DNA of 64,000 nt from a virus. The stretch covers positions 1 to 64,000 of the IMG/VR virus record IMGVR_UViG_3300044807_000022; one strand, written 5' to 3'. The notes under the pieces were generated by a model that was not told the origin of the DNA, did no database searches, and was given only the letters and a program-made list of their open reading frames with translations. Of this stretch, positions 4,041-57,136 are shown one piece after another (within the stretch, counting starts at the first letter, position 1; each line of letters opens with the position of its first letter). The position numbers and the translations under genes are program-made.

Positions 4041-4450
4041 GCGCCGCAGAGAGGGCGGCGGCGGCGCAGGAGCGCATTGGCGAGCAACTGGAGGCGCTGC
4101 TGGCGGTCCAGACGCGCCGCGAGAGGCGCGAGGCCCTGGACCGCCAGGCCGAGGCCGACCGCGTGGGGAGTCGCAGCCAGCCGCGCCGCATCGGCATCGA
4201 CCTGGCCCTCCAGCGCTTCCCCGGCCTCGCGGGCGAGTTCCGGCGGATCGTACCGCCCGAGTTCTGGACCAAGGCGGGCTCCTCCGCTGCCGCCGTCGCG
4301 TGCCCGTGCGGTGTCGAGGAGCCGCCGACCGTGACGCTGAACCAGACCGTGACGTGCGTGTGCGACCGTGCCTACCTCTACACCGGGGAGCACGTGAGGG
4401 TCGCGTTCTCCCCGCCCTCGGTCGCCGCCGACGCCGCCGAGAAGTCCTGA
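4037..4450 (+). CDS. Hypothetical protein with C-terminal Cys motif, 137 aa
   Basis: GTG 4037 overlaps the upstream TGA; the much longer open frame to 3395 is a chance extension across the structured gap. The N-terminal ~55 residues are a charged helix, the centre has FPGLAGEFRRIVPPEFW, and the end has CPCG, ~15 residues, CVCDRAYLY, a likely zinc knuckle. Its stop lies inside a near-perfect palindrome half-site at 4441. Confidence 0.7.
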   Translation: MSAAERAAAAQERIGEQLEALLAVQTRRERREALDRQAEADRVGSRSQPRRIGIDLALQRFPGLAGEFRRIVPPEFWTKAGSSAAAVACPCGVEEPPTVTLNQTVTCVCDRAYLYTGEHVRVAFSPPSVAADAAEKS

Positions 4451-4466
4451 CGGGCGTCGAGCGAAC
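4441..4466. repeat. Dispersed palindrome, perfect left half-site
   Basis: The left 13 bases match the half-site exactly, the right half is degenerate (19 of 26 overall). It spans the stop of the 4037-4450 gene and lies just upstream of the TTCGTAGATTA element at 4477. Confidence 0.65.
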
Positions 4467-4476
4467 CCGCCGCAGA

Positions 4477-4487
4477 TTCGTAGATTA
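4477..4487 (+). promoter_or_regulatory. TTCGTAnATTA promoter-like element, copy 1
   Basis: TTCGTAGATTA with CGAA 13 bases before the CGTA. It ends 37 bases before the ATG at 4525. One of six copies that share this core and precede gene groups; likely the -10 region of a phage promoter class. Confidence 0.5.
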
Positions 4488-13444: not shown

Positions 13445-13497
13445 CCTTAATCCGTTCCCAGCGGGCCTTAATCCGGCTCCGATTCGTAGATTACGAA
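13445..13497 (+). promoter_or_regulatory. TTCGTAnATTA element, copy 2, with 21-bp-spaced direct repeats
   Basis: CCTTAATCCG occurs at 13445-13454 and again at 13466-13475, exactly two helical turns apart. Eight bases later TTCGTA-GAT-TACGAA (13483-13497) is a perfect inverted repeat containing the TTCGTAGATTA core. If TAGATT is the -10, the start falls on the portal GTG at 13499, implying a leaderless mRNA. The paired repeats look like activator or repressor sites. Confidence 0.55.
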
Positions 13498-13498: not shown

Positions 13499-15745
13499 GT
13501 GTCTGAGCTAGTAGACCATCGCGGCGATCCCATCAGTTCAGTGGGTGGGTGGCGCGGCGAGGGTCCGCCCAGGCTGGAGAACGGCGACGGCACGCTGATC
13601 GTCAACGAGACGGACCTGCCGGACGGCGCGGTCCAGCATGCGGTCGCCACCTACTTCGAGGAGTCGGCCGCGTTCAACCTCGGCGGCAACTCGAACACGT
13701 TCCAGATGTACGCGAACCAGGGCGGCTCCATGCTGGCCCGGCCCAAGTTCAGTCCCCCCTCCGACGTGTTCGGGGAAATGCGGCTGGCCCGCGACCTGGC
13801 CGAGCGCGACGACGACGTGGGCTCGACCATCGGTGCGCTGGTCGCGCTCGCGTACGGGGAGGGCTTCCAGAACACGCACCCGGACGAGGTAACCGTCGCG
13901 CTCTACGACGAGATTGCCAAGAACATGAAGCTGCCGCAGGTCCAGGCAGAGGCGTACCGGGAACTGCTCATCACCAGCCAGATCATCAGCGTGACCCTGT
14001 TCACGCGCGAGAGCTACAGCTTCATCCCGCAGGGCACCGACCGCTACCGCACCCGCACGGTCACCAGCCCGCTCCTCGGGTTCCTCCCGGCCGAGCACGT
14101 GCGCGTCGTCGGCAACGACCTGTTCGGCGGCGGCGACCTCTACTTCCTCCCGCCCGACGAGAACCTGAAGCGGTGGCTGGTCGAGCGGTTCAACCCGAGC
14201 ACCAGTGCCGGTCGGCTCGCGCAGATGCGCTCCGAGGACCCGGTGGCCTACACGCTGTTCACCGAGGAGCACAAGGTCTCCCCCGTGGACCCGGACGACA
14301 CCATCGCCGGGCTCACGCTCTACCGGCTGAACCCGCGCATGATCGAGCGGTCGTTCTTCCCCAAGGGCGCGTGGAAGTACCCCCGGCCGCTGCTCACCCG
14401 CAACTTCGCTCTCCTCGAAGCCAAGCGGCTCCTGAACATCATGGACTACTCGCTCCTCCAGGGCGGCGCGAACTACATCGTGATCGCCAAGAAGGGCTCG
14501 GACGCGCAGCCCGCGCAGCCGGGCGAGGTCGAGAACCTGCGCGACGTGGTGCGCCGCGCAGGGCGGTCCGGCGTGATGGTGGGCGACCACCGGGTCAGCA
14601 TCGACATTCTGACGCCGGAACTGAAGGAACTGATGAACCCGGACAAGCGCCGCCTGCTCGGACGCAAGCTGTCGCAGGCGATGACGCGCGTGCCCGAGCA
14701 CACCAGCGAGAACGCCGGGACCGAGGGCATGAAGTCCGAGGTAGAAATCCTGACGCGCGTCGTGGCTTCCGACCGCAAGATGGTGAGCATGCACATCGTC
14801 GCGGCGGCCTACGAGCCCACGGCGAAGCGCAACCCGAACACGTTCACGGGCGGCCCGGCGAAGCTCTGGCACCCCAAGATCGTCCTCCAGGGCACGAACT
14901 ACTTCACGGACATGATCCTGAAGCTGCTCGACCGTGGCGCGATCCCGCTGCGCTACGCCGTCGAGTTCGCGGGCTTCGACTTCGAGGCCGCCGTCGAGGA
15001 GAAGAAGCGCCAGAAGGCGCAGGGCCTCGATGAGGTCATGGCCCCCGCGCCCGGCCAGGTGCCGCACTCCTCACCGAACGTCGGCCCGCAGGACAACGGC
15101 CCCGGCCGCACGCCTGGTGGCGACGACCCGGCCAGGCCAAAGCGCAAGATCGCGCAGAACCCCGGCGAGACGATCAAGGCGATCTACGACGAGGAGGCCC
15201 GCAGGGTCACGCGCGTAGGCGAGCGCACGCTGAGCATCCTGGAGGACCACGACGATACGCGCAGCGAGGGCCGCGTGAGCGCCATCGAGCGCCGCGTGGT
15301 CGAGACGCGCCGCCCCGACCGCCAGGGTCCCGTGCGCGTCGTGCCGGTGAGCGACCTGGAGGTCTCCAGCCTCGGGGCCGTCCGTCTGGGCGACCCGGCC
15401 GACACGTCGCTGATTCTCGGCCGCCGCGACGAGGACGACGCGCTCGTCACCGTCGCGCTCAGCTTCCGTGGCCCCGGCTCCATGAACGACGCCGTGAAGG
15501 CGGCCATGGAGTGGGGCTTCGACCCGTTGACCGAGACGGCCGACGAGGAGCACGCCATGCAGCACGTCACGGTGGGCGAGCCCTCGGGCGTCGAGCCCCT
15601 GCTGGCCGTGCTCGCCTCAGCCGTCGCCTCGCAGGCCAGCGTGCAGCTTCCGCCCATCACGATCCACGTCCCAGGCCAGCGCGCTCAGCGCGTGCTGTAC
15701 GACGACGACGGCCGCGTGAAGGGCACCGAGCCGGTGGAGGACTAG
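13499..15745 (+). CDS. Portal protein
   Basis: 748 residues, GTG start only six bases after the -10-like TAGATT. Follows terL and two small genes. Features fit siphovirus portals: EMRLARDLAERDDDVGSTIGALVALAYGEGF near the N-terminus, a long central mixed region with NIMDYSLLQGGANYIVIAKKGS, the stretch PEHTSENAGTEGMKSEVEILTR, and a basic, helical C-terminus of ~200 residues. The C-terminal part is longer than in typical ~500-residue portals and may carry an extra domain. Confidence 0.8.
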   Translation: MSELVDHRGDPISSVGGWRGEGPPRLENGDGTLIVNETDLPDGAVQHAVATYFEESAAFNLGGNSNTFQMYANQGGSMLARPKFSPPSDVFGEMRLARDLAERDDDVGSTIGALVALAYGEGFQNTHPDEVTVALYDEIAKNMKLPQVQAEAYRELLITSQIISVTLFTRESYSFIPQGTDRYRTRTVTSPLLGFLPAEHVRVVGNDLFGGGDLYFLPPDENLKRWLVERFNPSTSAGRLAQMRSEDPVAYTLFTEEHKVSPVDPDDTIAGLTLYRLNPRMIERSFFPKGAWKYPRPLLTRNFALLEAKRLLNIMDYSLLQGGANYIVIAKKGSDAQPAQPGEVENLRDVVRRAGRSGVMVGDHRVSIDILTPELKELMNPDKRRLLGRKLSQAMTRVPEHTSENAGTEGMKSEVEILTRVVASDRKMVSMHIVAAAYEPTAKRNPNTFTGGPAKLWHPKIVLQGTNYFTDMILKLLDRGAIPLRYAVEFAGFDFEAAVEEKKRQKAQGLDEVMAPAPGQVPHSSPNVGPQDNGPGRTPGGDDPARPKRKIAQNPGETIKAIYDEEARRVTRVGERTLSILEDHDDTRSEGRVSAIERRVVETRRPDRQGPVRVVPVSDLEVSSLGAVRLGDPADTSLILGRRDEDDALVTVALSFRGPGSMNDAVKAAMEWGFDPLTETADEEHAMQHVTVGEPSGVEPLLAVLASAVASQASVQLPPITIHVPGQRAQRVLYDDDGRVKGTEPVED

Positions 15746-20307: not shown

Positions 20308-20379
20308 GGATCGTGCTTACGCGTGCGTCCTGGTGTCGGCGCTCGCGGGGCTTTCGTGGTGCGACATGGTGCGGAAACG

Positions 20380-20407
20380 GGAACGACCGTCGCGCTTTCG
20401 TAGATTA
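20380..20407 (+). promoter_or_regulatory. TTCGTAnATTA element, copy 3 (GGAA-N15-CGTA)
   Basis: GGAA at 20380-20383, 15 bases, then CGTAGATTA. The element ends 9 bases before ATG 20416, so an RNA from it would start close to the start codon. It heads the protease-scaffold-capsid group. The 20308-20379 sequence upstream shows nothing else I can support. Confidence 0.55.
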
Positions 20408-20576: not shown

Positions 20577-21932
20577 ATGCCGGTGAAGTTCCCCAAGGGC
20601 ACGCAGGTCTTCGAGCGGGGCGACAAGGTGTTCATGGTCGCCCCGGTCTCGCCGCTCACGGTCACCGACGAGCAGATCGAGGAGTTCGCCTTCGCGGACT
20701 CGGTGAAGCGCATGCGCTCGCAGGCACCGAATCCGAACCTGGCGTGGTTCGGCGGCCACTACGTCGAGGCCGACGCGGCGAACCGCAACGGCGCGATGTG
20801 GACCGCAGGCGAGCTTGCCATCAAGGCGGTCACGCCGATGTTCATGCCCGTGACCGTGATGCACGATCCTCGTACAGCCGTTGGCCTGATCGCTGACACG
20901 GTGCTCAAGACGCCCGACCAGCATCAGGTCCCACGCTCCCGCATCGAGACGGCCCTGGCTCTCTGGGCGCACCGCTTCCCCGAGGCGGTCGAGGAGGCCA
21001 TGCACAACTACAAGGCCGGGACGCTCATGCAGTCCATGGAGTGCCTGGCCCCGGAGTATTCCTGCTCCACGTGCGGCATGACGTACCAGAAGCTCCCGCG
21101 CGGCGCAGAGCGCGCGAACTGGTGCTCGCACCTGCTGGAGTCGAACCCCAGCGGTGGCTACACGGCACGGGCGGGGGAAAGTCCAACTGCCGTTCGTATA
21201 TTACGCCAAGTCTGCTTCACCGGGACCGGACTCATCTACGGAACTCGGGGGGCCAGAGGCGCAGACCCACACGCGAACCTCGAAGCCTTCCAAGAAGAAG
21301 TAGCGGAGTACCACGAACGGTCTCACCGCACTGATACGCGAAAGCCCCGGAGGACTCGAACCAGCATGGACCCCATCGAAGTCGCCAAGTCGGAGTACGA
21401 GGCCCTGCTGAAGCGGCCCGAGCAGAAGACGCTCGACGCTGCCATCGAGCGGGCGGAAGCCGCCGAGGCGAAGGTCGCCACGCTGGAGGAGGAGAAGGCC
21501 GCCGCCGAGAAGGCGAAGGCCGACGCCGAGGAGGCCAAGGAGGCAGCCGAGAAGAAGGTCTCGGACGCCGAGGAGAAGGCCGCCGCCGCCGACCTCAAGA
21601 CCAAGCGTCTCGACGCGCTGGGCGAGGGCTTCAAGGCCAAGCTCGGCGCGAAGACCAAGGAGCGCCTGACCGAGCAGGCCGGGACCATGAAGGACCCGGA
21701 GTGGGAGGCGCGCCTGGAGGAGCTTGCCGAGGCGTACGGCGTCAAGCCGGACGAGGCCAAGGCCAGCACCGAGGCGGACGGCGACGAGACCGTCTTCACG
21801 CGCGACGAGGTTGCGCGGAGCAAGACGGCCGGTGCCTCCGAGGAGGAGCACGCCTCCGCGCAGCCGTCCGAGGCCGCGCAGAAGAACGTCGTCGGCGGGC
21901 TGTTCTCGATGGCCCGCGCGGGGAAGCTCTAG
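20577..21932 (+). CDS. Prohead protease-scaffold protein
   Basis: ATG 20577, 451 residues. The N-terminal ~215 residues look like a capsid maturation protease: VMHDPRTAVGLI offers the catalytic His and SMECLAPEYSC a candidate Ser, with a CSTCG-CSH cluster after it. From about residue 265 the chain is a long Ala/Glu/Lys coiled coil (MDPIEVAKSEYEALLKR onward), typical of scaffolds. An internal promoter-like element (21176-21203) and an internal ATG 21366 with GGAGGA upstream suggest separate production of the scaffold part. Located directly before the decoration and capsid genes. Confidence 0.75.
   Translation: MPVKFPKGTQVFERGDKVFMVAPVSPLTVTDEQIEEFAFADSVKRMRSQAPNPNLAWFGGHYVEADAANRNGAMWTAGELAIKAVTPMFMPVTVMHDPRTAVGLIADTVLKTPDQHQVPRSRIETALALWAHRFPEAVEEAMHNYKAGTLMQSMECLAPEYSCSTCGMTYQKLPRGAERANWCSHLLESNPSGGYTARAGESPTAVRILRQVCFTGTGLIYGTRGARGADPHANLEAFQEEVAEYHERSHRTDTRKPRRTRTSMDPIEVAKSEYEALLKRPEQKTLDAAIERAEAAEAKVATLEEEKAAAEKAKADAEEAKEAAEKKVSDAEEKAAAADLKTKRLDALGEGFKAKLGAKTKERLTEQAGTMKDPEWEARLEELAEAYGVKPDEAKASTEADGDETVFTRDEVARSKTAGASEEEHASAQPSEAAQKNVVGGLFSMARAGKL
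21176..21203 (+). promoter_or_regulatory. TTCGTAnATTA element, copy 4, fused to a palindrome half-site
   Basis: GGAA (21176-21179), 15 bases, then CGTATATTA. The spacer is the left half of the 26-bp palindrome ending in CTGCCGTT. It lies inside the protease-scaffold gene, about 160 bases before the internal scaffold ATG 21366. Confidence 0.55.
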
Positions 21933-22008
21933 GGCAACCCCGCACCTGAACCACCTGATCTGACCACCACCACCTGAACCGAACGAGACCCGAGGAGCAA
22001 GAACCAAG

Positions 22009-22608
22009 ATGGACTACGGCATCTTCCCGCTGAAGGACGCATCTGCGCTCCCCAACGTCTCGGTGGCGCATCCCGGCGAGGTCTGGACCCGAGGCGTGGC
22101 CTCGGGCGCGATCCGACCGGGCCAGGCCGTCGTTCCGGTCAACCGGACCGTCAACGGCCGCGACACGCTCTGCTACAAGGCGGTCGGCGGCTCGGCCGAC
22201 GTGTCGAGCGCGGCAGTCGCGCCGTCGCAGGTCGCCATCGCCATGCGCAAGATCGAGGTCCCGGACCAGAACAGCGGCTCGCAGTACAACGAGGCGCTGG
22301 GTCCGAACCAGATCGTCAACCTCCCGATCAGCGACGGCGACTACGTGCGCACGTACTTCTCGGGGGCGTTCCACCTGACCCAGATCGTCGCGGCCGACTA
22401 CAAGCCCGGCGACCGGATCGGCTACGACCCGGCGGCCACGCCGCAGACGGGCAAGGTCGGGCCGGGCGCGTGGCGCAAGTCGGCGGACGCCGGGGCGGTC
22501 CTGAAGGACCACTTCGAGGTCATCGAGTTCCGGCGCTTCGAGCCCGCCGGGGGTGTCGCCAACGAGGGCATCCTGACCGTCCGCAAGCTCGGGGCCGCGC
22601 AGTTCTAG
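22009..22608 (+). CDS. Head decoration protein candidate
   Basis: 199 residues, ATG preceded by GAGGAG. Beta-rich, with GDRIGYDPAATPQTGK and FEVIEFRRFEPAGG segments, between scaffold and capsid genes where head fibre or decoration proteins are usual. The 76-base leader contains CCACCTGA-type repeats. Confidence 0.65.
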   Translation: MDYGIFPLKDASALPNVSVAHPGEVWTRGVASGAIRPGQAVVPVNRTVNGRDTLCYKAVGGSADVSSAAVAPSQVAIAMRKIEVPDQNSGSQYNEALGPNQIVNLPISDGDYVRTYFSGAFHLTQIVAADYKPGDRIGYDPAATPQTGKVGPGAWRKSADAGAVLKDHFEVIEFRRFEPAGGVANEGILTVRKLGAAQF

Positions 22609-22699
22609 GCCCCTGACCTGACCTGACGCGCGAGCAAACGCACCTACCCACCTTCCACACCGAAACCCTGACGAGAAACACGAGGAGCCCAGAGACCAG

Positions 22700-23647
22700 A
22701 TGGACAACGTGATCTTCAACACGCTCAAGGCCGTCCGGTCCGAGGAGAACGCGGAGCGGCGCGCCGAACTGATGGAGCGCTCGAACGCGGAGCTTGCTCA
22801 GCACTTCTCGCGCCCGCAGAACCAGGCCGACCTTCAGGAGTTGGCGTTCGACCTCCTGAACAACGCCTGGAACGACACGACCCGGCAGGACATTCTGCCG
22901 GACCTCATCGACGTGAAGACGGTCGGCTTCGGCTCCGTCGATTACGTCAACGAGAACCTGTACGGCATGCGGGCCTACTGGCAGGGTCCCGGCGGCCAGA
23001 TTCTCTCGGACGTGCTGCGCTACTCGCGCACCACGATGCCGCGAGACGGGATGGTCGCCGCCATCGACCTGCACGACGACGAAATCGCCACGGACTTCTG
23101 GGGCACGTTCCAGAAGCTCTCGGCGCACGCGTCGGAGAAGCTGGCCCTCCTCCCGGCCGAGCGCCTGGTGGAACTGATCCAGCGGGCCGTCACGTCGGGT
23201 GCCTACTTCGGCTCCTTCGCCGCGAGCACGCTCACGGCGGCCGAGGTCGATTCGGTCCTCGACAACGTGGCCCTCAAGTCGGCGGGCAAGGTGTCCATCG
23301 TCGGGACCCGGTACGCGATCCGCAAGCTCGCGAACATCGGCCTGGCGTTCGGCCCCAACGTCCAGGAGCGGGTCTTCGACTCGGGCCAGATCGGCGTCTA
23401 CAAGGGCTACCCGGTGGTCCAGTTGGACAACGAGCAGGAGAACTTCGAGGGGCAGTTCGCGCTGCCCAACGACGAACTCTGGCTCGTCGGCCGCAACGCC
23501 GGTCGTCTGACCTACTACGGCAACGAGGCCAAGGTCCAGACGCTCCAGCGCTCGGGCTTCTACAAGCGCTGGGAGACGGAGCGCGCCGCAGGCATGCTCC
23601 TCTACGGCGCGGACTTCGGGCGGCTCGGCCGCATCAAGCTCACCTAA
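22700..23647 (+). CDS. Major capsid protein
   Basis: 315 residues, ATG with GAGGAG about 10 bases upstream. Alpha/beta HK97-type features: an N-terminal helical arm, then VGTRYAIRKLANIGLAFGPNV and GVYKGYPVVQLDN in the P-domain-like half, ending YGADFGRLGRIKLT. Position after scaffold and decoration genes and before a strong terminator supports the call. It forms the icosahedral shell. Confidence 0.82.
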   Translation: MDNVIFNTLKAVRSEENAERRAELMERSNAELAQHFSRPQNQADLQELAFDLLNNAWNDTTRQDILPDLIDVKTVGFGSVDYVNENLYGMRAYWQGPGGQILSDVLRYSRTTMPRDGMVAAIDLHDDEIATDFWGTFQKLSAHASEKLALLPAERLVELIQRAVTSGAYFGSFAASTLTAAEVDSVLDNVALKSAGKVSIVGTRYAIRKLANIGLAFGPNVQERVFDSGQIGVYKGYPVVQLDNEQENFEGQFALPNDELWLVGRNAGRLTYYGNEAKVQTLQRSGFYKRWETERAAGMLLYGADFGRLGRIKLT

Positions 23648-23682
23648 GCGCCTTCAAGGGACGCACCGGGGGTAGGGAATCG

Positions 23683-23716
23683 ACGGGGCGGTTGGTCAGA
23701 CGACCGGCCGCCCCGT
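23683..23716 (+). terminator. Strong terminator or attenuator after the capsid gene
   Basis: ACGGGGCGGTTGGTC (23683-23697) pairs with GACCGGCCGCCCCGT (23702-23716) over 15 bp with two G-U pairs and a 4-base loop, followed by TAGCGTTC. It would lower transcription past the capsid gene. Confidence 0.7.
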
Positions 23717-23762
23717 TAGCGTTCAGCAGTAGAGCAGTCAACAAGCGAACCGGAGGATGGAC

Positions 23763-24584
23763 ATGCCGCAGGACAAGACGCTCTGGAAGAACAACACCGC
23801 AAGCGTGGACCCCGAGCAGAAGGGGTTCATCATCGGGGTCTCGGTCTACGACCAGGAGCACAAGCAGACCCGCCAGCCGCTCATGCCCGGTGAGACCGTC
23901 TGGCTCACCGAGGACGAGCGCATCCTTACGGCGAACGCGCCGCGACTGGAGCAGGACAACCCGTTCACGAACGGCCACCTTCTCCAGGTCAACGAGGAGC
24001 AGCGGCCCATCGGCCGGTCCATCGGCGGCTCCACCACCACGACCGGCGAGACCGTCGCCCCCGTGGAGGACGTGGAGGCCACCGCCGCTGCCAAGGCCGA
24101 GGCGGACGCGCCCCCTGCCGATCCGGCCCCCGAGCCCGAGGCACCGGCCGCTCCCGAGGACCACACGGTCGCGCCCCCGTCCGGCCCGCCGGTCGGCACG
24201 ATCACCGAACTGCCGCCAGAGCTTCGCCTGGGCGGCGACAACGACACCGAGGCGGGCGAGCCCCCGGAGGTCTCAGGCCCCGTGAGCGTCGTCGGGGACG
24301 GAGAGGTCCGCGAGGTCGCAGAGGAGGAGCACGCGGCCGTAGGAGCCGCCACGGTGGCCGAGGAGACCGGCGCAGCCGTCCCGCCCGCCGGGGAGCCGCC
24401 CATCGGGGAGTACGCGCAGGACGAGGAGGTCGCGACCCCCGAGGCCGCAGCCGCCACGTCCGCCGAGGGGCCGCCGCCCGCGTCCCCGGACCCCATCGAC
24501 CAGGAGCAGGGCCTTCACGCCCTGACCCCCGAGCCCGAGCCGACGCCCGAGAACGGGCCGGGCGGGCGCTTCCGGGTGAAGTAG
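23763..24584 (+). CDS. Acidic low-complexity structural protein, 273 aa
   Basis: ATG 23763 is preferred to ATG 23757 because GGAGG abuts the latter. The first ~95 residues are folded (KGFIIGVSVYDQEHK, PGETVWLTEDERIL); the rest is Glu/Pro/Ala-rich. Between capsid and connector genes; possibly a head accessory or extended decoration protein. Confidence 0.65.
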   Translation: MPQDKTLWKNNTASVDPEQKGFIIGVSVYDQEHKQTRQPLMPGETVWLTEDERILTANAPRLEQDNPFTNGHLLQVNEEQRPIGRSIGGSTTTTGETVAPVEDVEATAAAKAEADAPPADPAPEPEAPAAPEDHTVAPPSGPPVGTITELPPELRLGGDNDTEAGEPPEVSGPVSVVGDGEVREVAEEEHAAVGAATVAEETGAAVPPAGEPPIGEYAQDEEVATPEAAAATSAEGPPPASPDPIDQEQGLHALTPEPEPTPENGPGGRFRVK

Positions 24585-24588
24585 AGCT

Positions 24589-25239
24589 ATGGCGGTGACG
24601 GACCCTCGGGACGTACGGGTGATGATCCCGAGGGTCCGTCGTGCCCTCGACGGGCCGCAGGCGCTCACCAGCGGCTTCGTAGGGGGCCTCTCGGACGAGC
24701 AGGTCAAGAACTACATCGCGGATGCCGTCGCGAGCGTCATCTTCTACACGGGCGGCGTGTTCGGCGCGGCCCTCGAAGTGACCGAGCGCGACCCCGACTA
24801 CAACGCCCCCTCGGAGTACCGCACCAGCCGCGAGTTGACGCTGCCCGAGCAAACCGTGATTGCCGTCCAGGCTTCGCTCGACCACTTCCATCACGAATTC
24901 AAGGGCGCGAAGGTCTCGGAGGCGATCCAGAACGAGTTCCAGTCGTGGGAGTGGTCGGTCAACGGGCCGATGCTGCGCGACCAACTGAAGGCGCTCCTCG
25001 CACAGCGCGACGAGGCGCTGGACATGATCCGCCGCACGGGCAACGTCGGCGTGGACACCTACGCCTCGTTCCTGGCCGCGCAGGACGTGCAGGTCGCCAT
25101 CGCCGTCGAGCCGTACACGATCTACGACACGGGCGGCTACATGCCCACGCGCGGCGGCGACTACAGCGGCGGCGGCGTCAGCGGGCATACCGGCTTCGTC
25201 AGCGGTGACGGGCTCGGCGGCCTCGGGCTGTTCGGGTAG
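24589..25239 (+). CDS. Head-tail connector (adaptor) candidate
   Basis: 216 residues. Helical protein with LSDEQVKNYIADAVASVIFYTGG, matching the usual head-completion adaptor position and helix-rich look; the last ~40 residues are Gly-rich. A perfect 15-bp inverted repeat occupies its first codons (24597-24640). Confidence 0.7.
   Translation: MAVTDPRDVRVMIPRVRRALDGPQALTSGFVGGLSDEQVKNYIADAVASVIFYTGGVFGAALEVTERDPDYNAPSEYRTSRELTLPEQTVIAVQASLDHFHHEFKGAKVSEAIQNEFQSWEWSVNGPMLRDQLKALLAQRDEALDMIRRTGNVGVDTYASFLAAQDVQVAIAVEPYTIYDTGGYMPTRGGDYSGGGVSGHTGFVSGDGLGGLGLFG
24597..24640 (+). promoter_or_regulatory. Perfect 15-bp hairpin inside the 5' end of a gene
   Basis: GACGGACCCTCGGGA (24597-24611) pairs exactly with TCCCGAGGGTCCGTC (24626-24640), loop 14 bases. 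It begins eight bases after the A of the ATG. It could block initiating ribosomes, protect mRNA ends or act as an attenuator between head and connector genes. Confidence 0.6.
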
Positions 25240-25244
25240 GGGCC

Positions 25245-25655
25245 ATGGACAACGCCGCCTTCGCGGACGCCCAGAAGCGCCTCACCGACTACGTGGGGGA
25301 GCAGGTCGTGCTGATGTTCCCGACCGAGACGGTGTGGCCGCCCGGCACGAAGCTCGACCCCGAGTCCGGCCAGCCGCTCGATCCCTGGGTCGAGCCGGTC
25401 TCGTCCGGCTTCACCGAGTGGACGGGCTCCGCGTCGGTGGGAAGGCGTCTCGCGAACTCCCGACTGCAATCAGGAGTTGAGTTCGAGCCCATCGGCGTCC
25501 AGGAGGGCGGGCCGATGCAGGTCCTCATCCCCATGGACTACTACCCGATTTCGTCCGGCGAGGCGAAGTACGCGCGGGTGCGCGGTCGCGAGTGGAAGGT
25601 GGAGGACACCGAACTCGACGTGTTCCGCTACGTGCTGCAACTGGAGCCCCGATGA
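25245..25655 (+). CDS. Head-tail connector (stopper) candidate, 136 aa
   Basis: ATG start. Beta-rich: VEPVSSGFTEWTGSASVG and KYARVRGREWKVEDTELDVF resemble small stopper proteins that form the ring below the adaptor. Its stop overlaps the ATG of a tiny ORF. Confidence 0.65.
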   Translation: MDNAAFADAQKRLTDYVGEQVVLMFPTETVWPPGTKLDPESGQPLDPWVEPVSSGFTEWTGSASVGRRLANSRLQSGVEFEPIGVQEGGPMQVLIPMDYYPISSGEAKYARVRGREWKVEDTELDVFRYVLQLEPR

Positions 25656-25708
25656 GCCGCTGGCGTCGGCGCTGGCGTAGGCGTCTGCCGCGACTGGTAC
25701 TGGTGTAG
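25652..25708 (+). CDS. Tiny Arg/Trp-rich ORF, 18 aa
   Basis: ATGA overlap with the upstream gene. The product begins MSRWRRRWRRR and fills the gap to the next start exactly. It may be a coupling ORF rather than a functional peptide. A similar short ORF beginning MSSRGWFWR lies at 26198. Confidence 0.35.
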   Translation: MSRWRRRWRRRLPRLVLV

Positions 25709-25710
25709 CC

Positions 25711-26205
25711 GTGCCGAACATCAGCCGACAGCAGATCATCGTGCAGTCCGTCCAGGACTACCTGCGGGCGAAGCTCGCCGCGCACGGCATCCCCGCCGAC
25801 GCGGTGACGATGCTGAACGCGTTCGACTACCAGCAGTTCAACGACCGGCCGCTCGACAAGGAGTACGTCGCGGCGGGCTTCAACTTCGACAAGGGCACGA
25901 AGCCGCTGGAGCTTGGCTCCTCCCTCTGCCAGCGGACGCACGTGCTGGAGTTCTGGGTCTTCGCGACGACGCCGCAGCGTGGCGAGGCGCTGGCAGGCAC
26001 GATCCGCGACTCGCTGGACGACGAGGGCCTGATCCCCCTGCTCGACTACAACCAGGACGGCGACCCGATCATGGACTACCTGGAGGTCGAGAACCCCGGC
26101 CCACGGTCGCAGCGGCAGATTCACCCCGAGCCCAAGCCGTGGCAGGAGAACGCGTGGACCGTGACCCTGCCCGTGATCGACACCTTCTACGCGAGCGATG
26201 AGTAG
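25711..26205 (+). CDS. Tail terminator or head-tail joining protein candidate, 164 aa
   Basis: GTG start. Mixed fold with RTHVLEFWVFATTPQRGEAL and NAWTVTLPVIDTFY, resembling tail terminator proteins in length and order. Assignment rests mainly on position in the connector run. Confidence 0.6.
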   Translation: MPNISRQQIIVQSVQDYLRAKLAAHGIPADAVTMLNAFDYQQFNDRPLDKEYVAAGFNFDKGTKPLELGSSLCQRTHVLEFWVFATTPQRGEALAGTIRDSLDDEGLIPLLDYNQDGDPIMDYLEVENPGPRSQRQIHPEPKPWQENAWTVTLPVIDTFYASDE

Positions 26206-26293
26206 CCGGGGATGGTTCTGGCGGACGCCTCCTGGCCGCGCGCTCGCGTGGTTCTTCCGCCGCATCGGCTGGACCGGCGACAACCTGGGGTAG
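26198..26293 (+). CDS. Tiny Trp/Arg-rich ORF, 31 aa
   Basis: ATG overlaps the end of the preceding gene by 8 bases and the ORF ends 7 bases before the next start. Trp-rich basic peptide with RALAWFFRRIGW. Like the 25652 ORF it bridges two connector genes. Confidence 0.4.
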   Translation: MSSRGWFWRTPPGRALAWFFRRIGWTGDNLG

Positions 26294-26299
26294 CCCCCC

Positions 26300-27037
26300 G
26301 TGGCTGACTACTTTCAGCGCATCCTCCCGGACCTTGCTCAGGTCGAGCGGGTCTACAAGCTGTTCGTGGAAGTCGAGGCGGAACTCGTAACGGCCGTTAG
26401 GGTTTCGCCGGACCCCGCAGTGCGCCGCACCGCGCAGAATCAGGCCCGGCTGGTGCGCCGCGCCTACCAGCAGTTCCAGGAGGACCTGATCGCGCTCGCG
26501 CAGCGGTGCGCCGAGGTCGCCAACGAGGAGGTCATGCGCCTCTACCAGGACGCCCGCACCCCGCGCGGCGACACCGGCAACCCTCCCCACCTGTCCGAGG
26601 CCCTGCCCACGTCCGAGGCGGTGCCGACGCCGGTACCGGCGGGCGTCGTCGGCATCACGCGGCTGGACGCACTGGAGAAGTTCGAGTATTGGAAGGCGCA
26701 GGAGTTCGGCCTGGATGAGGGCTTCGTCGGCCGCGAGGTCAAGGGCTGGTTCTTTGGCACGGGCTTCAGCGGCCCGATCAGCGCGCCGGACCCCGGCCAG
26801 AGCCAGAACCACCCGCTGTTCAGGCCCTCCAGCACCGGCCGCACGATGCACATTCAGAACCCCATCGAGCCCGGCCACTTCCTGACCGACACGGTGCGCA
26901 CGGTCGAAGCGCTGTGGCTCAAGCTGATGAACGAGTCGGTGCGCGACGTGGTGCGTGACCTCGACGCCGCGCTGGGCCAAGCCAGGCCCTCTGGCTACCG
27001 CGAGGGAGTGCTCCGTCGCGGTGCCCGTCGCCGTTAG
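26300..27037 (+). CDS. Hypothetical connector-region protein, 245 aa
   Basis: GTG start. The first ~85 residues are helical (RRAYQQFQEDLIALAQRCAEVANEEVMRLYQ), then a Pro-rich linker and a second domain with EYWKAQEFGLDEGFVGREVKGWFFG. Ends with a basic tail. The 26-bp palindrome at 26381 is within it and a promoter half-site begins at its stop. Minor tail or connector role inferred from place. Confidence 0.65.
   Translation: MADYFQRILPDLAQVERVYKLFVEVEAELVTAVRVSPDPAVRRTAQNQARLVRRAYQQFQEDLIALAQRCAEVANEEVMRLYQDARTPRGDTGNPPHLSEALPTSEAVPTPVPAGVVGITRLDALEKFEYWKAQEFGLDEGFVGREVKGWFFGTGFSGPISAPDPGQSQNHPLFRPSSTGRTMHIQNPIEPGHFLTDTVRTVEALWLKLMNESVRDVVRDLDAALGQARPSGYREGVLRRGARRR
26381..26406. repeat. Dispersed 26-bp palindrome, best copy
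   Basis: 22 of 26 positions match. Read in frame it forces GTT and AGG codons (V-R), atypical of this GC-biased region, which points to selection on DNA rather than protein. Confidence 0.75.
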
Positions 27038-27063
27038 AAGTTCTGACGCCCGTTCGTATATTA
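27036..27063 (+). promoter_or_regulatory. TTCGTAnATTA element, copy 5, fused to a palindrome half-site
   Basis: AGAA, 15 bases, CGTATATTA. The first part GAAGTTCTGACGCCCGT is a near-complete left half of the palindrome. It overlaps the stop of the previous gene and ends 30 bases before ATG 27093, heading the tail-tube genes. Confidence 0.6.
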
Positions 27064-27092: not shown

Positions 27093-27404
27093 ATGCGGCA
27101 ACTACTGGAACTGGTCACTCGGTACATACAGGGTCGGAGACGACGCTACCTCGCGCAGATGCTCGGAGAGTTCGAGCGGAGCGTGGAGCCTCATCTGAAC
27201 CTGGATGACCCGCAGGTGGTCGGTGGCGTGAACGAGTTCAAGGCGCTTGTACGCATGCGACTGAACGCTCTCGCGGTGGACGCCGTGGACGCGCTGAAGG
27301 CCACGCTGGAAGGCAAGAGCATCAACCAGGCCGGACAAGACCTACGCGACAGGCTGCACCCCGAGGGTCGGCCCCAACCCACCAGGAGACCAGACACCGC
27401 ATGA
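27093..27404 (+). CDS. Hypothetical helical protein, 103 aa
   Basis: ATG start 30 bases after a promoter-like element. Basic, helical (RYIQGRRRRYLAQMLGEF; RMRLNALAVDAVDALKATLEG). Overlaps the tail tube gene by four bases, so probably a tail-assembly accessory. Confidence 0.65.
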   Translation: MRQLLELVTRYIQGRRRRYLAQMLGEFERSVEPHLNLDDPQVVGGVNEFKALVRMRLNALAVDAVDALKATLEGKSINQAGQDLRDRLHPEGRPQPTRRPDTA

Positions 27405-28648
27405 GCGTTCGAGCCGGGGAAATCCTTCATGTAGCGGGCAACAACGTGATCGACCGCATCCAGTCGGCCGGTCTCGGCAACGTTCAGGTGCCCATCGAGC
27501 GCATCCTGGAGGTCGGCAACCGGGAGACCGTGGACAAGGTTCCGGGCGAGCCGGACTTCACGTTCTCGCTGGAGTCGCTGGACGTGTCCGTCGAGCTTCT
27601 GGCGTTCCTCTCGGGGCGCGTCTCGGCGGCGGCCTCGGGCTCGGCGTCGGTCGCGGAGACCGTCGCGGACGGGACCGAGTTCGACTGGCTCGACGTGGCC
27701 GGTCGCGCCATCAACATCGCTTCGCCGTGGAAGGACCCGAGCACGGGTTCAGCGGGCGTCGTGGAGGCGGGGCACCTGATCCCCGGCTACTACGTCACCC
27801 GCATGGCCTACCGCTACGGCGTGACGGACAACGCCACCCAGAGCGTGGACCTGTCCGGCGGCGCGTTCTTCTACGGCGAGTTCGCGCCGACCGAGGCGTT
27901 CTTCACGGGCGACGGCGCGACCGACGACTTCGTGACCCCGAACAACGCGGTCGGCTACCGCAAGGGTGGCGCGGACGGCACGACCTTCAAGTCGGTGTTC
28001 GGCGTCATCGTGGACGGCACGCTCCAGACCGAGGACGTGGACTACACGGTCACCCCGACGACCGTGGGCGCGGGCGCGCGCACGGTGACGTTCACGAACC
28101 CGCCCGCCAACGGCGCGGACGTGCGGCTCTGCTACTTCACGAACGCGGCCAAGGCGTTCCCGCAGACGGTCCACGCCTCGACGCTCGTCAAGCCCGGCGC
28201 GGTGCGCGGGCGCAACATCAAGATTCTCGTCAACGGCGACCGGATCGGCGGCGTGCAGAGCTTCGAGCTTGACGCCACCTGCACCGGCACGCTGGAGCGG
28301 GAAATGGGCACCGAGGACGTGGTGGGCTACACGCTCACCGAGACCAACGCGAACGGCACCATCACGATCCGCGCCAAGGACAAGGACGCGTTCTTCACGT
28401 TCCTGTCCGAGGTCACGGGCGTCTCGCGCGCGGAGGTCTTCGGCTGGTTCAACCAGAACTCGGTCGAACTGGAGGTCTTGGTCGAGAACCCCAAGAACCC
28501 CGGCCAAATCCTCAAGACCCTGTACGTCAACGACGCGCAGTTCCAGCCGCCCGGCACCCCGGCGCGCGTCAACCAGGCGACCGACTTCGCCATCACGTGG
28601 GAGTCGAAGCGCGGCAGCTTCAAGGAGTACAAGGGAGAGCGGCCCTAG
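27401..28648 (+). CDS. Major tail (tube) protein
   Basis: 415 residues, ATGA overlap. Beta-rich tube features: N-terminal RAGEILHVAGNNVIDRIQSAG, a GGAFFYGEF segment, and the C-terminal FAITWESKRGSFKEYKG. Situated before two terminators and the tail chaperone, as the tail tube usually is. Longer than minimal tube proteins; the central region may be an extra surface domain. Confidence 0.8.
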   Translation: MSVRAGEILHVAGNNVIDRIQSAGLGNVQVPIERILEVGNRETVDKVPGEPDFTFSLESLDVSVELLAFLSGRVSAAASGSASVAETVADGTEFDWLDVAGRAINIASPWKDPSTGSAGVVEAGHLIPGYYVTRMAYRYGVTDNATQSVDLSGGAFFYGEFAPTEAFFTGDGATDDFVTPNNAVGYRKGGADGTTFKSVFGVIVDGTLQTEDVDYTVTPTTVGAGARTVTFTNPPANGADVRLCYFTNAAKAFPQTVHASTLVKPGAVRGRNIKILVNGDRIGGVQSFELDATCTGTLEREMGTEDVVGYTLTETNANGTITIRAKDKDAFFTFLSEVTGVSRAEVFGWFNQNSVELEVLVENPKNPGQILKTLYVNDAQFQPPGTPARVNQATDFAITWESKRGSFKEYKGERP

Positions 28649-39414: not shown

Positions 39415-39430
39415 CGGGAGTTAGGACTTC
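39405..39430. repeat. Dispersed 26-bp palindrome between two tail genes
   Basis: 21 of 26 positions match, with GTTAGGACTTC exact. It covers the TAA stop (39412-39414) and the gap to the GTG at 39435. Confidence 0.75.
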
Positions 39431-39434
39431 TCAG

Positions 39435-40091
39435 GTGGTCCTCGACTTCCTCAACGCAGCACCGACCCAGGCACAGGAGGACGCCGCGCGGGCGGTGCTC
39501 GGCCCCACCTGCCTGTTCAAGTGGAGCCAGTTCGATCACACCGTGCGCGTCCAGTGGGTCGATCACCCAGGTCCGGTCGGGGGCATCCCGCCGGGGCAGA
39601 TCGACACCGAGTTCTACGCCTACACCACCATCGGGGCCGGGCCGACGCCGACGCTCGACGTGCAGCTACGGAACACGCTCGGGCTCGGGCCGGACGCGGA
39701 GGGCGACTTCTACAAGCTGAGCCGCTACCCGCCGAACACGCTCAACTTCATCACCGAGTGCATGGTCCACGAATTGGGCCACATCGTCGTCGGCTATATC
39801 CCGGACGCTGACGTGCTGTTCCCGCCGCTGTTCTACCTGAACGGGCGGCAGGGCACGGCGGCCGACTGGCAGCCGCACGACCGGCATGAGTACCTTCAGA
39901 TTGTGGAGGCCACCGTCGAGACCTTCAAGGACGCGTACTACCCCAGCCGCGCGACCGACTCGTTCTCCTTCTGGCGCATGCCGCGCGGCAACTTCGCCGC
40001 GTTCATCCGCCTGTTCCCGCAGCCGGGCGAGGACCTGACGCCGTACCCCAAGTGGCACATCACGTTCTTCGCGCCGGGCGGTGAGACCTAA
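39435..40091 (+). CDS. Tail-associated protein with zinc-metalloprotease motif
   Basis: 218 residues, GTG start. HELGH at residues 112-116 (MVHELGHIVVG) is an HExxH zinc motif with Gly as in matrixin/zincin helices. A candidate third ligand is E158 in QIVEATVE. N-terminal strands and an internal PPLFYLNGRQG segment complete a small protease-like domain. Located among minor tail genes, so a virion-borne protease acting on host surface protein is possible; activity is unproven. Confidence 0.65.
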   Translation: MVLDFLNAAPTQAQEDAARAVLGPTCLFKWSQFDHTVRVQWVDHPGPVGGIPPGQIDTEFYAYTTIGAGPTPTLDVQLRNTLGLGPDAEGDFYKLSRYPPNTLNFITECMVHELGHIVVGYIPDADVLFPPLFYLNGRQGTAADWQPHDRHEYLQIVEATVETFKDAYYPSRATDSFSFWRMPRGNFAAFIRLFPQPGEDLTPYPKWHITFFAPGGET

Positions 40092-40867
40092 TGCCGCCGC
40101 CCTACTACGGCACCGACGCGTACAACCAGAGCAAGGGCAACTGGAACTCGTTCGCGAGCGAGACCATCCCGCCGCAGAAGCGCGGTGGTCCGCTCGTCGC
40201 GAGCGGTGACTTCAGGCGCACCGCTGGAGAGTGGCCCACGATTGCGCTGGTCGATTACGCGTTCCTCGGCATCCCCGGCGACGGCGGCATCCGCTCGGTC
40301 TCGCAGGAGTTCTTGGACTGGCCGAACAACAACTTCCCGTTCTTTCAGAGCGGCTGGACGATGCAGCAGGGCTGGATGGTCTGGGTCAGGTGGAAGTTCT
40401 ACAACGGGCCGGTGATGCCGCAGCATGAGGTCCAGGTGCCGTGGGGCAACCAGCCAGAGGGCTCGTTCCTCGGCCCCGACCGTTTCAAGGACCCGAACGT
40501 CCACACTCTGATCTTCCCGTCCGGTGTGCCGTTGTGGACCTACACGATGCAACTGCCGTCAGAGGTTGATCGGTTCACCTGCGACATGCAGTACGTCGGT
40601 GGGCCGCAGACGCACATCAACAACTTCTTCGGCTTCGGCTCCTTCTACCTCAGCCACCAGATCGCCCCCGAGCCGCCGCCGTGGCCGTACAAGGAGCCCA
40701 TCGTCGTGCCGTCGCCAGCCGGGACGCGCAGGTACGACCGCAACACGGCCGTCAAGCTCGCGCGGCACCACCTGGAGCGCCGACAGCGGGGCTCGCGCCG
40801 GGTGAGCGGCAACGCCGCCGACCCTCTCCTGTTCAACGGGCAGGACCCGAACACGATCATCACGTAG
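40091..40867 (+). CDS. Minor tail protein, 258 aa
   Basis: ATG in a TAATG overlap. Aromatic-rich beta domain (FFQSGWTMQQGWMVWVRWKFY, NNFFGFGSFYLSHQI) followed by a basic C-terminus (RHHLERRQRGSRR). The last gene of the structural module. Confidence 0.65.
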   Translation: MPPPYYGTDAYNQSKGNWNSFASETIPPQKRGGPLVASGDFRRTAGEWPTIALVDYAFLGIPGDGGIRSVSQEFLDWPNNNFPFFQSGWTMQQGWMVWVRWKFYNGPVMPQHEVQVPWGNQPEGSFLGPDRFKDPNVHTLIFPSGVPLWTYTMQLPSEVDRFTCDMQYVGGPQTHINNFFGFGSFYLSHQIAPEPPPWPYKEPIVVPSPAGTRRYDRNTAVKLARHHLERRQRGSRRVSGNAADPLLFNGQDPNTIIT

Positions 40868-40925
40868 TCGTCCGGCGCGGCGGCCAGAATCTCCTCGGTC
40901 GAGAACTCGTAACTGGAGGTAGGTT

Positions 40926-41981
40926 TTGGGACAGGGACAGCAGCGGGCACCATTGCCGGTCGGCTCGGCACGCGGACGTGAAGGGGCGCGCTGGTACAAC
41001 CAGCGACCCACGTCCGAGGAGATAGCCGCCTGGTTCAAGGACAACGTGCCGATGCACGACGGCATGGACCCGGCGCGCTACGTCGGCGGCCTGACGCTGA
41101 TCCCCGGCAAGGAGTTCCCCGAGGAGCCGTTCACGCCCCAGGGCGGCGGCAACACCGTCCTGCGCAAGGTCATCAACCAGGTCCTCACGCCGTACTGCAA
41201 GGTCGAGACGCGGGTCCAATACTTCTGGGACCTGATGGCGAAGAAGCAGGCCGACTGGATCGGCATGATCGAGCCGGTCGAGCCGATGCACGACGGCGGC
41301 AACCGGACGCTGCCACCGGGCTTCTTCTACGCGAACTACAAGGTCGAGAGCAAGGACGTGACGTTCGTGTGCTGCACGATGCGCGTCCGGGTGATCGAGC
41401 GCGAGGGCGCACAGTGGGTGGACGTGCCCGAGCGCTGGGCCGGTGGCCGCAAGGTCGGCGGCGGACGCATCCTCCAGGGCATCCCCGTGATCGAGTCGCC
41501 GCCCGCGACCAAGATGATCCCGGTCCTGACGACCAGCGGCTACGGCAACAACACGACCGTCACCGCCGACCCGCACATGCTGATGAAGGCCGAGACGGGG
41601 GCCACGGGCCGCGCGCTCGGACTCGCCGGGATGCTCGTCGTGCCGGGCACGGGGATCGCCACGGCCGAGGACATGCTGGAGGCCGCGTCTCAGGGCGCTC
41701 CTCCCGCGACAGACGGTGCGGCGGACGTTTCCCTGCCCGAGGTCGCCTCTGCCCCGCAGGAGGCCGCCAGCGGCTCTCAGGAGCCCGATACGCGGTCGGC
41801 GCTCGAAGTCCTGCAAGCCGAGGTCGAGGAGAAGGTCCAGCGGCTCCAGGAGGCCGACCCCGCGAAGCATGAGGAGTTCCAGCGCTGGGCGCGCGAGGAT
41901 CGCGGCTTCAAGGACCTGGCCTCGCTCAACGAGAGCCAGCTACGCGGCGTCTCGCGCAAGCTGGATCGCGACCTCAAGTAG
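40926..41981 (+). CDS. Single-strand annealing / recombination protein candidate (Erf-like)
   Basis: TTG 40926 is chosen because GGAGGT lies 5 bases upstream and no better start exists. 351 residues. The segment ADPHMLMKAETGATGRALGLAGM resembles the helix in Erf/Rad52-type phage annealing proteins (xETxAxGRALxxAG). The C-terminal third is a Glu/Ala-rich linker and helix. Its location next to a VRR-NUC nuclease and a RecB-type nuclease supports a recombination role. Moderate certainty. Confidence 0.6.
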   Translation: MGQGQQRAPLPVGSARGREGARWYNQRPTSEEIAAWFKDNVPMHDGMDPARYVGGLTLIPGKEFPEEPFTPQGGGNTVLRKVINQVLTPYCKVETRVQYFWDLMAKKQADWIGMIEPVEPMHDGGNRTLPPGFFYANYKVESKDVTFVCCTMRVRVIEREGAQWVDVPERWAGGRKVGGGRILQGIPVIESPPATKMIPVLTTSGYGNNTTVTADPHMLMKAETGATGRALGLAGMLVVPGTGIATAEDMLEAASQGAPPATDGAADVSLPEVASAPQEAASGSQEPDTRSALEVLQAEVEEKVQRLQEADPAKHEEFQRWAREDRGFKDLASLNESQLRGVSRKLDRDLK

Positions 41982-48209: not shown

Positions 48210-48534
48210 ACGCAAGGGCAAGCAGGAGAAGCTGGCGTCGGCGCTGACCATCGGCGGCCGAATCTCCGACTACCGTCAGAAGAAGGGCCTGAGCTACGAC
48301 GACCTCATCGAGGCGTGCAAGGGCGTCTGGCGCGACCCGTGGCGACGGCCGGTCACGAAGTCCTACCTCCAGAAGTTGGAGAAGGGCAAGGTGCGCGATC
48401 TGTCGGCGCACACGGACAACACGCTCGGCAAGGACGGCGAAGTGATCGAAGTCGTGGGCGGCTTCCCTGCCGTCGCCGCGCGTCTCTGCAAGGCGTTCGG
48501 CTGCACACCCCTGGACCTACTGGAGGAGCGCTGA
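48199..48534 (+). CDS. Xre-like helix-turn-helix protein, 111 aa
   Basis: ATG 48199 overlaps the previous gene by 11 bases. RISDYRQKKGLSYDDLIEACKG and, after an insert, SYLQKLEKGKVRDL correspond to the recognition region of Cro/cI-type proteins; PLDLLEER ends the domain. A candidate phage regulator and possible binder of the dispersed palindromes. Stop overlaps the FkbM gene start. Confidence 0.65.
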   Translation: MAPRRKGKQEKLASALTIGGRISDYRQKKGLSYDDLIEACKGVWRDPWRRPVTKSYLQKLEKGKVRDLSAHTDNTLGKDGEVIEVVGGFPAVAARLCKAFGCTPLDLLEER

Positions 48535-49349: not shown

Positions 49350-49483
49350 CGATCATCTGGTTCGGTCGGTGGTGGTGGGCGCGGCTCGGCCCGTTCACGT
49401 TCCATCGGCACTACACGCCCTTCAGGATCAAGGGCCAGCGCCGCTGGACGCCGTTCGTCACGATCAGGTGGGCCGGGCCGTGA
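49346..49483 (+). CDS. Small Trp-rich protein, 45 aa
   Basis: ATGA and GTGA overlaps on both sides. TIIWFGRWWWARLGPFTF is a Trp-rich hydrophobic-basic stretch, perhaps membrane-surface bound. The exact fit between two enzymes supports it as a gene. Confidence 0.5.
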   Translation: MTIIWFGRWWWARLGPFTFHRHYTPFRIKGQRRWTPFVTIRWAGP

Positions 49484-50283: not shown

Positions 50284-50423
50284 GCACCACGCCGACACCC
50301 CCGCCCCCGCCTACGCCGCCGTACGACCTGTGGCTCCAGTATCAGGCCACCGCCATCGACCACTGCCTGAAGCTCGGCGGGGTGGTCATCGACCCGTCAC
50401 CGAAAGCGGGGTTCGCGAAGTGA
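50280..50423 (+). CDS. Short Pro-rich protein, 47 aa
   Basis: GTGA overlaps with both neighbours. Pro-rich start then WLQYQATAIDHCLKLGGVVID. Called from the perfect tiling of overlaps. Function unknown. Confidence 0.5.
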   Translation: MSTTPTPPPPPTPPYDLWLQYQATAIDHCLKLGGVVIDPSPKAGFAK

Positions 50424-57108: not shown

Positions 57109-57136
57109 GTTGCCCACCCCCATGCGCGTAGAAGTC

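Follow-up and report, generated by a model that had tools for sequence, protein, structure and literature searches.

The promoter-like elements and their palindromes

The window analysed here consists of the first 64,000 nucleotides of the 85,063-bp virus record IMGVR_UViG_3300044807_000022, which derives from a soil phage. The original prediction placed promoter-like elements at positions 21177 and 27037, and both are indeed present: the sequence TTCGTATATTA occurs exactly twice in the whole record, at 21193-21203 and 27053-27063, and each copy is fused to palindrome sequence beginning at 21177 and 27037, respectively. When up to two mismatches are allowed, six matches are found in the window, all on the + strand (0.55 expected). 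The first palindrome, GAAAGTCCAACTGCCGTTCGTATATT (21177-21202, + strand, 24.8 bits), lies with its core (21193-21203, + strand) inside the protease/scaffold gene 20577-21932, and an orthologous core occupies the same place in the related genome G001 (position 1178). Read in frame, this core specifies R-I-L with the rare codons ATA and TTA, and 171 bp downstream an in-frame ATG (21366), which would start a scaffold-like coiled coil, follows a GGAGG. The second palindrome, GAAGTTCTGACGCCCGTTCGTATATT (27037-27062, + strand, 23.8 bits), starts at the final base of the stop codon of gene 26300-27037, and its core (27053-27063, + strand) is followed by genes 27093/27159-27404 and 27401-28648.

The right half of the palindrome had been thought to be replaced by the -10-like core at both sites. 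The fusion itself is borne out, but not a simple replacement, because both sites retain GTT as inner triplet (positions 16-18) as well as T25, which is nearly invariant, and only the outer right arm is weak (ATT instead of TTC). Scoring 24.8 and 23.8 bits, where the cut-off is about 12 (12.1), the two sites should be regarded as full members of the palindrome family with a weak outer right arm, and the label "half-site" understates what are near-full palindromes.

Further fusions or associations beyond these two were observed at 20374-20399, 81771 and 4441. The full palindrome GAAACGGGAACGACCGTCGCGCTTTC (20374-20399, + strand) leads straight into a core CGTAGATTA (20399-20407), 17 bp ahead of the ATG at 20416, and the orthologous site of G001 (core at 596) carries a palindrome as well. 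A third palindrome-core fusion at 81771, beyond the window, shows the same register as 21177 and 27037, while the palindrome at 4441-4466 (+ strand) begins 38 bp upstream of the core CGTAGATTA at 4479-4487 (promoter core TTCGTAGATTA, 4477-4487, + strand). No palindrome accompanies the core TTCGTAGATTA at 13483-13493 (+ strand), upstream of the large late gene 13541-15745, or the core-like sequence CGTAAATTA at 53641-53649 (+ strand).

A dense family of intragenic palindromes

The dispersed 26-bp palindrome proposed originally also proved real. A two-fold symmetric matrix trained on the window sites identifies 76 copies of GAA-N5-RACKNNMGTY-N5-TTC across the whole window (820-63740) and about 95 in the 85-kb record, where 0-1 are expected; about 20 of the record sites fall in the 21 kb outside the training set, and 93 reach at least 16 bits, compared to an expectation of 0.05 in order-3 Markov sequence. 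The matrix is strand-independent, with an outer and an inner conserved triplet in each half. In a search of the distant phages GX15bay and Microdon, no palindromes were found.

Most sites are wholly intragenic (75 of 96 in genome G000), the enrichment near gene ends is only about two-fold, and some sites are located at stop codons. These positions might be taken to indicate an RNA-level element such as a terminator or hairpin, or else a by-product of codon usage, a reading that appears very improbable. A hairpin or terminator is ruled out by the paired positions, which show no base-pair covariation and have an anti-complementary central pair. Codon usage is ruled out by the use of all three reading frames and by synonymous-codon shuffling, which leaves only 7.9 of the 75 intragenic sites of G000 (about 90% destroyed). 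The palindrome is under selection at the DNA level. In G002, another strong motif (CGG..CCG) turned out to be a collagen-like coding repeat.

The palindromes are evenly spaced in genomes G000, G001, G013, G014 and G015, with coefficients of variation of 0.50-0.64 vs about 0.98 expected (P below ~2e-4); in G004 and G005, the regularity was tested and is not significant. Their density is uniform along the genome, regions of both transcription directions are covered, and between relatives the density is kept as the positions turn over. All these features would suit genome-organising sites, along which a MoxR/vWA/DUF6744 complex is loaded for compacting, segregating or packaging the chromosome, any overlap with promoters being a secondary regulatory use. 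We regard this as rather unlikely, as 33 of 52 late cores have a site, as do 13 of 24 operon genes (see below), often in a fixed register, and as the regularity lacks significance in G004 and G005. ParA or ParB is absent among the 25 of 46 Pfam families listed, and the even spread of the palindromes differs from the clustering of parS sites.

Relation of the palindromes to the late promoter core

The putative promoter core TCGTAnATTAgg recurs in nearly all 30 relatives, whether or not a palindrome accompanies it, and is found on the late strand without exception. An alignment of 125 cores shows a strong TCGTAnATTAgg and contains neither a conserved -35 nor a GGAA element, so the GGAA proposed as upstream element did not hold up. 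The putative reader of the core is a sigma-factor-like protein of 208 amino acids (54137-54763, + strand), which matches PHROGs sigma-factor families (E ~1e-4), shows weak region 2 and region 4 matches, and is encoded in all 12 near-complete genomes; it is a candidate for, and probably is, the factor recognizing the TCGTAnATTA cores. Compared to phage sigma factors of the ECF-like type, the sigma-like protein is thus present, but the conserved combination of a GGAA-type -35 with a -10 is missing.

The presumed link between the two families was confirmed: in ten palindrome-bearing genomes, a palindrome starts 10-40 bp upstream of 33 of the 52 cores, whereas 1.4 are expected and the maximum in 2000 random placements was 6, and in G004 all nine cores carry a palindrome at exactly -17. 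On the other hand, only one of six cores of G001 has a palindrome, the orthologues of both named sites (1178 and 7054) are cores without one, and no core of the palindrome-free relatives is accompanied by a palindrome. Because relatives keep the core in this way, it does not depend on the half-site, and the idea of the half-site as a promoter part is not supported; the original prediction had itself named such an observation as speaking against it.

The same data bear on a role of the palindromes as activator sites, which would substitute for the missing -35 and recruit sigma factor or RNA polymerase to the late promoters, leaving the dispersed copies as decoys or weak antisense promoters. The lack of a conserved -35 and the filling of this region by the palindrome at fixed offsets are in line with such a role, but it seems improbable given that orthologous cores persist without palindrome in the operon-free relatives and G001, and that the great majority of palindromes have no core nearby. 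The combination of promoter-placed and dispersed sites would look like the pattern expected of late-promoter operators plus other sites.

A three-gene operon tracks the palindromes

Just past the window end, the record encodes an operon on the - strand (record positions 65018-69176), consisting of the genes for a DUF6744 protein (65018-66001), a vWA protein (66186-67856; VWA_2, 2.5e-8) and a MoxR ATPase (67956-69176; bpMoxR, 4e-40, with AAA_5 and AAA_lid_8). Among the 12 near-complete genomes, all eight with the adjacent DUF6744, vWA and MoxR genes harbor the palindrome set (36-115 sites each), and all four without the operon contain 0-2 palindromes; of 474 gene families, only these three show the 8/0 pattern. 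A de novo search for an alternative dispersed palindrome in the operon-free genomes gave only noise-level motifs. Genomes G013, G014 and G015 were retrieved by the operon proteins alone and their palindromes checked afterwards: matrices from other genomes gave 25-43, 24 and 10 matches (0.5 expected), and refined matrices 96, 96 and 51 sites, respectively. A pure clade effect is rejected, since the genomes with and without palindromes do not separate into two clades and G001 nests among palindrome-negative genomes with 98% support. Moreover, 13 of the 24 operon genes have a palindrome near their start, between 66 bp ahead of it and 9 bp into the gene, and the motif specificity varies between genomes, as expected for a co-evolving binding protein; in G015, for example, TAC takes the place of GAA as outer element.

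A tyrosine integrase (56098-57123, - strand; PF00589, 9e-20) is present in 12 of 12 near-complete genomes. A tie of the palindromes to integrase or lysogeny as such is rejected on this basis, and since operon-free relatives also carry the integrase, the system is not required for integration.

The vWA proteins contain a MIDAS-type DxSxS motif (DGSGS in G000, G001, G002 and G005, DESGS in G004). The adjacent third component is DUF6744 in all eight cases and differs from the beta-propeller alluded to in the Pfam name bpMoxR. For DUF6744, no DNA-binding fold or other known fold was recognisable in the PDB, which speaks against it as the binding protein. Moreover, no homologues were obtained by tblastn in annotated phages or plasmids, two queries of GTDB genomes turned up no copy in a host or prophage, and the literature searched does not mention DUF6744. 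The binding protein could be encoded outside the operon. A conventional repressor or activator, e.g., the wHTH protein 57202-57687, might bind the palindromes with the operon as a frequent passenger; these phages encode other HTH proteins, and a small, strongly diverged repressor could evade homology searches. We consider this doubtful, because the 8/0 pattern is shared by no further family among the 474 (the wHTH protein occurs in five positive genomes and one negative) and the operon predicted the palindromes in three unseen genomes.

Comparison with known systems

The closest parallel is the repressor-stoperator immunity of cluster A mycobacteriophages (L5, Bxb1, TipsytheTRex), where a monomeric HTH repressor binds 20-30 asymmetric, transcription-oriented 13-bp sites per genome in short intergenic gaps (PMC6550527, PMC9283540). 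As in cluster A, many copies of one DNA site occur genome-wide, some of them as operators inside promoters (33 of 52 cores, next to dozens of dispersed sites of the same sequence), and the motif varies among related phages. In contrast, the sites described here are 26-bp palindromes instead of asymmetric, oriented 13-bp sequences, number 36-115 per genome, are mostly intragenic (75 of 96 in G000) and are tied to an AAA+/vWA/DUF6744 operon. None of the several HTH proteins found in Pfam scans is assigned to the L5 gp71-type repressor family, as far as the Pfam comparison goes. By this comparison, the palindrome system appears to work like mycobacteriophage stoperators, yet is not one of them. 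Repeated regulatory-looking sites are also known as stoperators of R4-like Streptomyces phages, which are intergenic (PMC10276819), and as T1-like repeats of phage Stevie, which are intergenic, asymmetric and one-directional (PMC4319613); the parts of these reports considered here mention no associated MoxR/vWA proteins.

With regard to the operon, an adjacent MoxR-type AAA+ ATPase with lid, a vWA protein with MIDAS-type DxSxS and a third component are shared with RavA-ViaA, CbbQO, the MoxR-vWA ternary conflict systems and ATV p618/p892, but here the third component is DUF6744. No dispersed DNA recognition site is reported for MoxR/vWA systems in the literature searched. Halovirus HVTV-1 (KC117377) likewise has genes for a vWA protein, an AAA ATPase and a homologue of DUF6744 (gene 25), but the last of these lies apart from the first two. 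A search of its genome revealed no dispersed palindrome of this kind, which speaks against the function proposed below.

Proposed function and significance

Taken together, palindromes and operon point to an undescribed phage system that would bind its own DNA genome-wide and sit on its own promoters. At a probability of about 0.5, we propose that a dimeric operon component, with DUF6744 as the probable candidate, binds the sites, which would serve as operators of late promoters and of the operon genes and also as dispersed silencing or roadblock sites. The promoters, with the core TCGTAnATTA probably read by the sigma-like factor, would be overlaid by the operators of this system; the promoter-bound component would block initiation, and the dispersed sites may silence the rest of the genome via an elongation block or DNA organisation. 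In known systems, MoxR/vWA pairs remodel partner complexes, and here the pair might load or remove the DNA-bound component, e.g., at induction, with the operon presumably autoregulated through its own palindromes. More tentatively, DUF6744, vWA and MoxR may form an ATP-driven DNA-binding system with some 100 self-placed palindromes, about one per gene and evenly spaced, by which the whole prophage is silenced or organised until freed by the AAA+ motor.

MoxR/vWA pairs have a wide distribution across bacteria, archaea and the viruses of both, and few of their clients are known. The palindromes would offer a concrete DNA address for such a pair, with dozens of candidate sites per genome, some at promoters and others at the genes of the operon itself. 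They also define a phage group with dense regulatory-type sites written into coding sequence; as the density is kept and the positions shift, at least eight genomes allow the co-evolution of palindrome, operon and site specificity to be followed. The ATP-driven system, if real, would represent a second way, unrelated to stoperators, of silencing a prophage genome-wide, and no MoxR/vWA pair would have been assigned a DNA-site-directed role before.

Results

The dispersed palindromes are selected as DNA

Given a few seed palindromes to start with, two-fold symmetric expectation-maximisation settled on 76 window sites, with a matrix reading GAA at positions 1-3, RAC at 9-11, KNNM at 12-15, GTY at 16-18 and TTC at 24-26. 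The sites start at 820, 2175, 2932, 4441, 5333, 5753, 7492, 8191, 9483, 11475, 12110, 12511, 13366, 14744, 15920, 18961, 20218, 20374, 21177, 24200, 24850, 25454, 26381, 27037, 28813, 29568, 30085, 30520, 31378, 32099, 32386, 33734, 34774, 35454, 36491, 36889, 37495, 38356, 39405, 40543, 40903, 42272, 42594, 43710, 44163, 44635, 46055, 46645, 47269, 47726, 48260, 48797, 49297, 49709, 50489, 51074, 51490, 51604, 51866, 52498, 53021, 53529, 54081, 54530, 55069, 55651, 56485, 57425, 58472, 59596, 60025, 60462, 61275, 62295, 62883 and 63715. The complete record, an 85,063-bp viral contig whose bases 1-64000 make up the window, contains 93 sites of at least 16 bits, where order-3 Markov sequence gives 0.05; about 20 sites fall in the 21 kb left out of matrix training.

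After refinement, 75 of the 96 sites of this phage (G000) are entirely intragenic; they occur in all three reading frames, with about two-fold enrichment at the starts and stops of genes and at intergenic positions. Shuffling synonymous codons within genes leaves a mean of 7.9 sites (maximum 13) versus the 75 real ones, and 5.2 versus 30 in the relative G001. The loss in G000 therefore shows that the sites are under selection at the DNA level. An RNA hairpin is ruled out by the lack of co-variation between paired palindrome positions and by an anti-complementary central pair (z -2 to -5). Five genomes space their sites more evenly than random placement would (coefficient of variation 0.50-0.64, P below about 2e-4); the effect is weak in G002 and falls short of significance in G004 and G005. 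Distant relatives seldom have aligned sites in common (1 of 28 for G000 and G001), and the closest pair, G004 and G009, has 5 of 18 versus 0.3 expected; site density is maintained as positions turn over.

The palindromes follow a three-gene operon

Per-genome refinement gave 96 sites in G000, 36 in G001, 115 in G002, 58 in G004 and 67 in G005, with no excess over chance in G003, G006, G007 and G008. A gene-content comparison of these nine genomes finds three adjacent genes in 5/5 positives and 0/4 negatives. In the record they form a minus-strand operon (65018-69176) just beyond the window end, whose genes encode DUF6744 (65018-66001), a protein with a vWA domain (66186-67856) and an ATPase of the MoxR type (67956-69176). 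As a test of prediction, viral contigs were searched using no profiles other than those of DUF6744 and vWA; this gave three new near-complete relatives, in which the operon is present by construction and which count for having palindromes; all are strongly positive, with foreign-matrix matches of 25-43 (G013), 24 (G014) and 10 (G015) versus 0.5 expected, and 96, 96 and 51 refined sites. Among 474 families, profile searches find exactly three with an 8/0 distribution, namely the operon genes; PF20529 occurs in the same eight genomes. Two separate clades do not explain the pattern, because a tree of 12 core proteins nests the positive G001 inside the negatives with 98% support. The palindrome set thus follows the operon, whose presence was scored in the 12 near-complete genomes, G009-G012 being partial contigs. 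Every relative is a metagenomic contig with gene calls made in this analysis, and a search for prophage copies in GTDB genomes found none.

A palindrome lies between 9 bp inside the gene and 66 bp upstream of its start in 13 of the 24 operon genes; in G000 the palindromes precede the starts of the three genes by 4, 5 and 56 bp. This placement suggests that the operon is autoregulated. A SNF2-family helicase (G003, L077:3922-5610) and its neighbours are common to the four palindrome-free relatives and absent from palindrome-bearing genomes; this region may be an alternative module.

Palindromes overlap an independent promoter-like core

The original prediction held that at 21177 and 27037 the left palindrome half runs into a promoter-like core which replaces the right half. 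The record has two exact matches to TTCGTATATTA, at 21193 and 27053, both on the plus strand and preceded by GAAAGTCCAACTGCCG and GAAGTTCTGACGCCCG, so that the palindrome upstream of a core is borne out for both. The right half is not lost: the sites score 24.8 and 23.8 bits versus a cut-off near 12, and "half" is too weak a term because GTT, the inner triplet on the right, is retained along with T25. The proposed link between both families holds more widely, since a palindrome begins 10-40 bp upstream of 33 of the 52 cores in ten palindrome-bearing genomes, whereas 1.4 would be expected and 2000 random placements gave at most 6. All nine cores of G004 have one at exactly -17, the core occupying palindrome positions 18-26; offsets are -18 (three times), -25 and -38 (once each) in G000, and -20 and -22 in G014.

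The half-site is dispensable for the core, as the G001 orthologues of both named sites keep the core and have no palindrome, the very outcome that the original prediction gave as refuting a need for the half-site. Orthologous G000/G001 cores, by gene context, are 4479/75703, 13485/81358, 20399/596, 21195/1178 and 27055/7054. Almost all of 30 related IMG/VR contigs fetched via the protein at 22700-23647 contain CGTANATTA, with few exceptions on the late-gene strand, and reversed-pattern controls are near zero; 125 aligned cores give the consensus TCGTAnATTAgg and no conserved -35. Sequence conservation thus marks the core as a putative promoter element independent of the palindrome, and a sigma-like protein of 208 aa (54137-54763), found in 12/12 near-complete genomes, would be its natural candidate reader. 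Core 21195/1178 lies inside a head-protease-like gene, whose reading frame it forces to use the rare codons ATA and TTA. The ATG at 21366, in the same frame, behind a Shine-Dalgarno sequence (GGAGG) and 3' of this core (21193-21203; conserved in relatives), suggests that a scaffold gene with a promoter of its own is nested here.

Other genes observed include one for a small wHTH protein (window 57202-57687; L017:2960-3328) that adjoins the integrase and also has a basic linker and a coiled coil, its domains apparently in opposite order in the two phages. The replication half of the genome carries a glycosyltransferase cluster with an FkbM methyltransferase (48315-53645). A LAGLIDADG homing-endonuclease-like protein is fused to an HTH (50841-51335). 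A tail-region gene of G002 (39415-41230) has long collagen-like Gly-X-Y coding repeats.

Discussion

The inner RAC..GTY is constant across genomes, and the adjoining base and outer triplet vary by genome (GACT..AGTC in G002, G..CG in G004 and G009, CAACK in G001, outer TAC..GTA in G015). In the DUF6744 model (mean pLDDT 81), residues 24-107 and 149-196 show strand-helix-helix-strand-strand patterns, followed by long C-terminal helices. On a weak structural argument, both segments could be winged helices; each monomer might then make two DNA contacts and dimerise through a coiled coil, which would fit the two triplets per half-site. Foldseek against the PDB returned no DUF6744 relative. A viral-structure search matched HVTV-1 gene 25 (L123:9815-10966), an unannotated halovirus protein that is a true homologue (profile E 2e-17). 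HVTV-1 also encodes vWA and AAA genes, and palindromes of this kind are absent from it.

In the literature, we found neither a description of DUF6744 nor a MoxR/vWA system tied to dispersed DNA sites. The likeness to mycobacteriophage stoperators would lie in the way of working, with operators and dispersed silencing sites; the asymmetry, orientation and intergenic location that define stoperators are not features of these palindromes. Computation establishes the sites, their selection, their overlap with promoters and their association with the operon; we infer which protein binds the palindromes, and that binding represses. The main rival, a genome-organising role for the palindromes, is compatible with silencing. 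The most economical reading is an operator-plus-dispersed-site silencing system, in which palindromes at promoters would serve as operators and the remaining sites would act in silencing, with a MoxR/vWA remodeller taking the place of a simple repressor.
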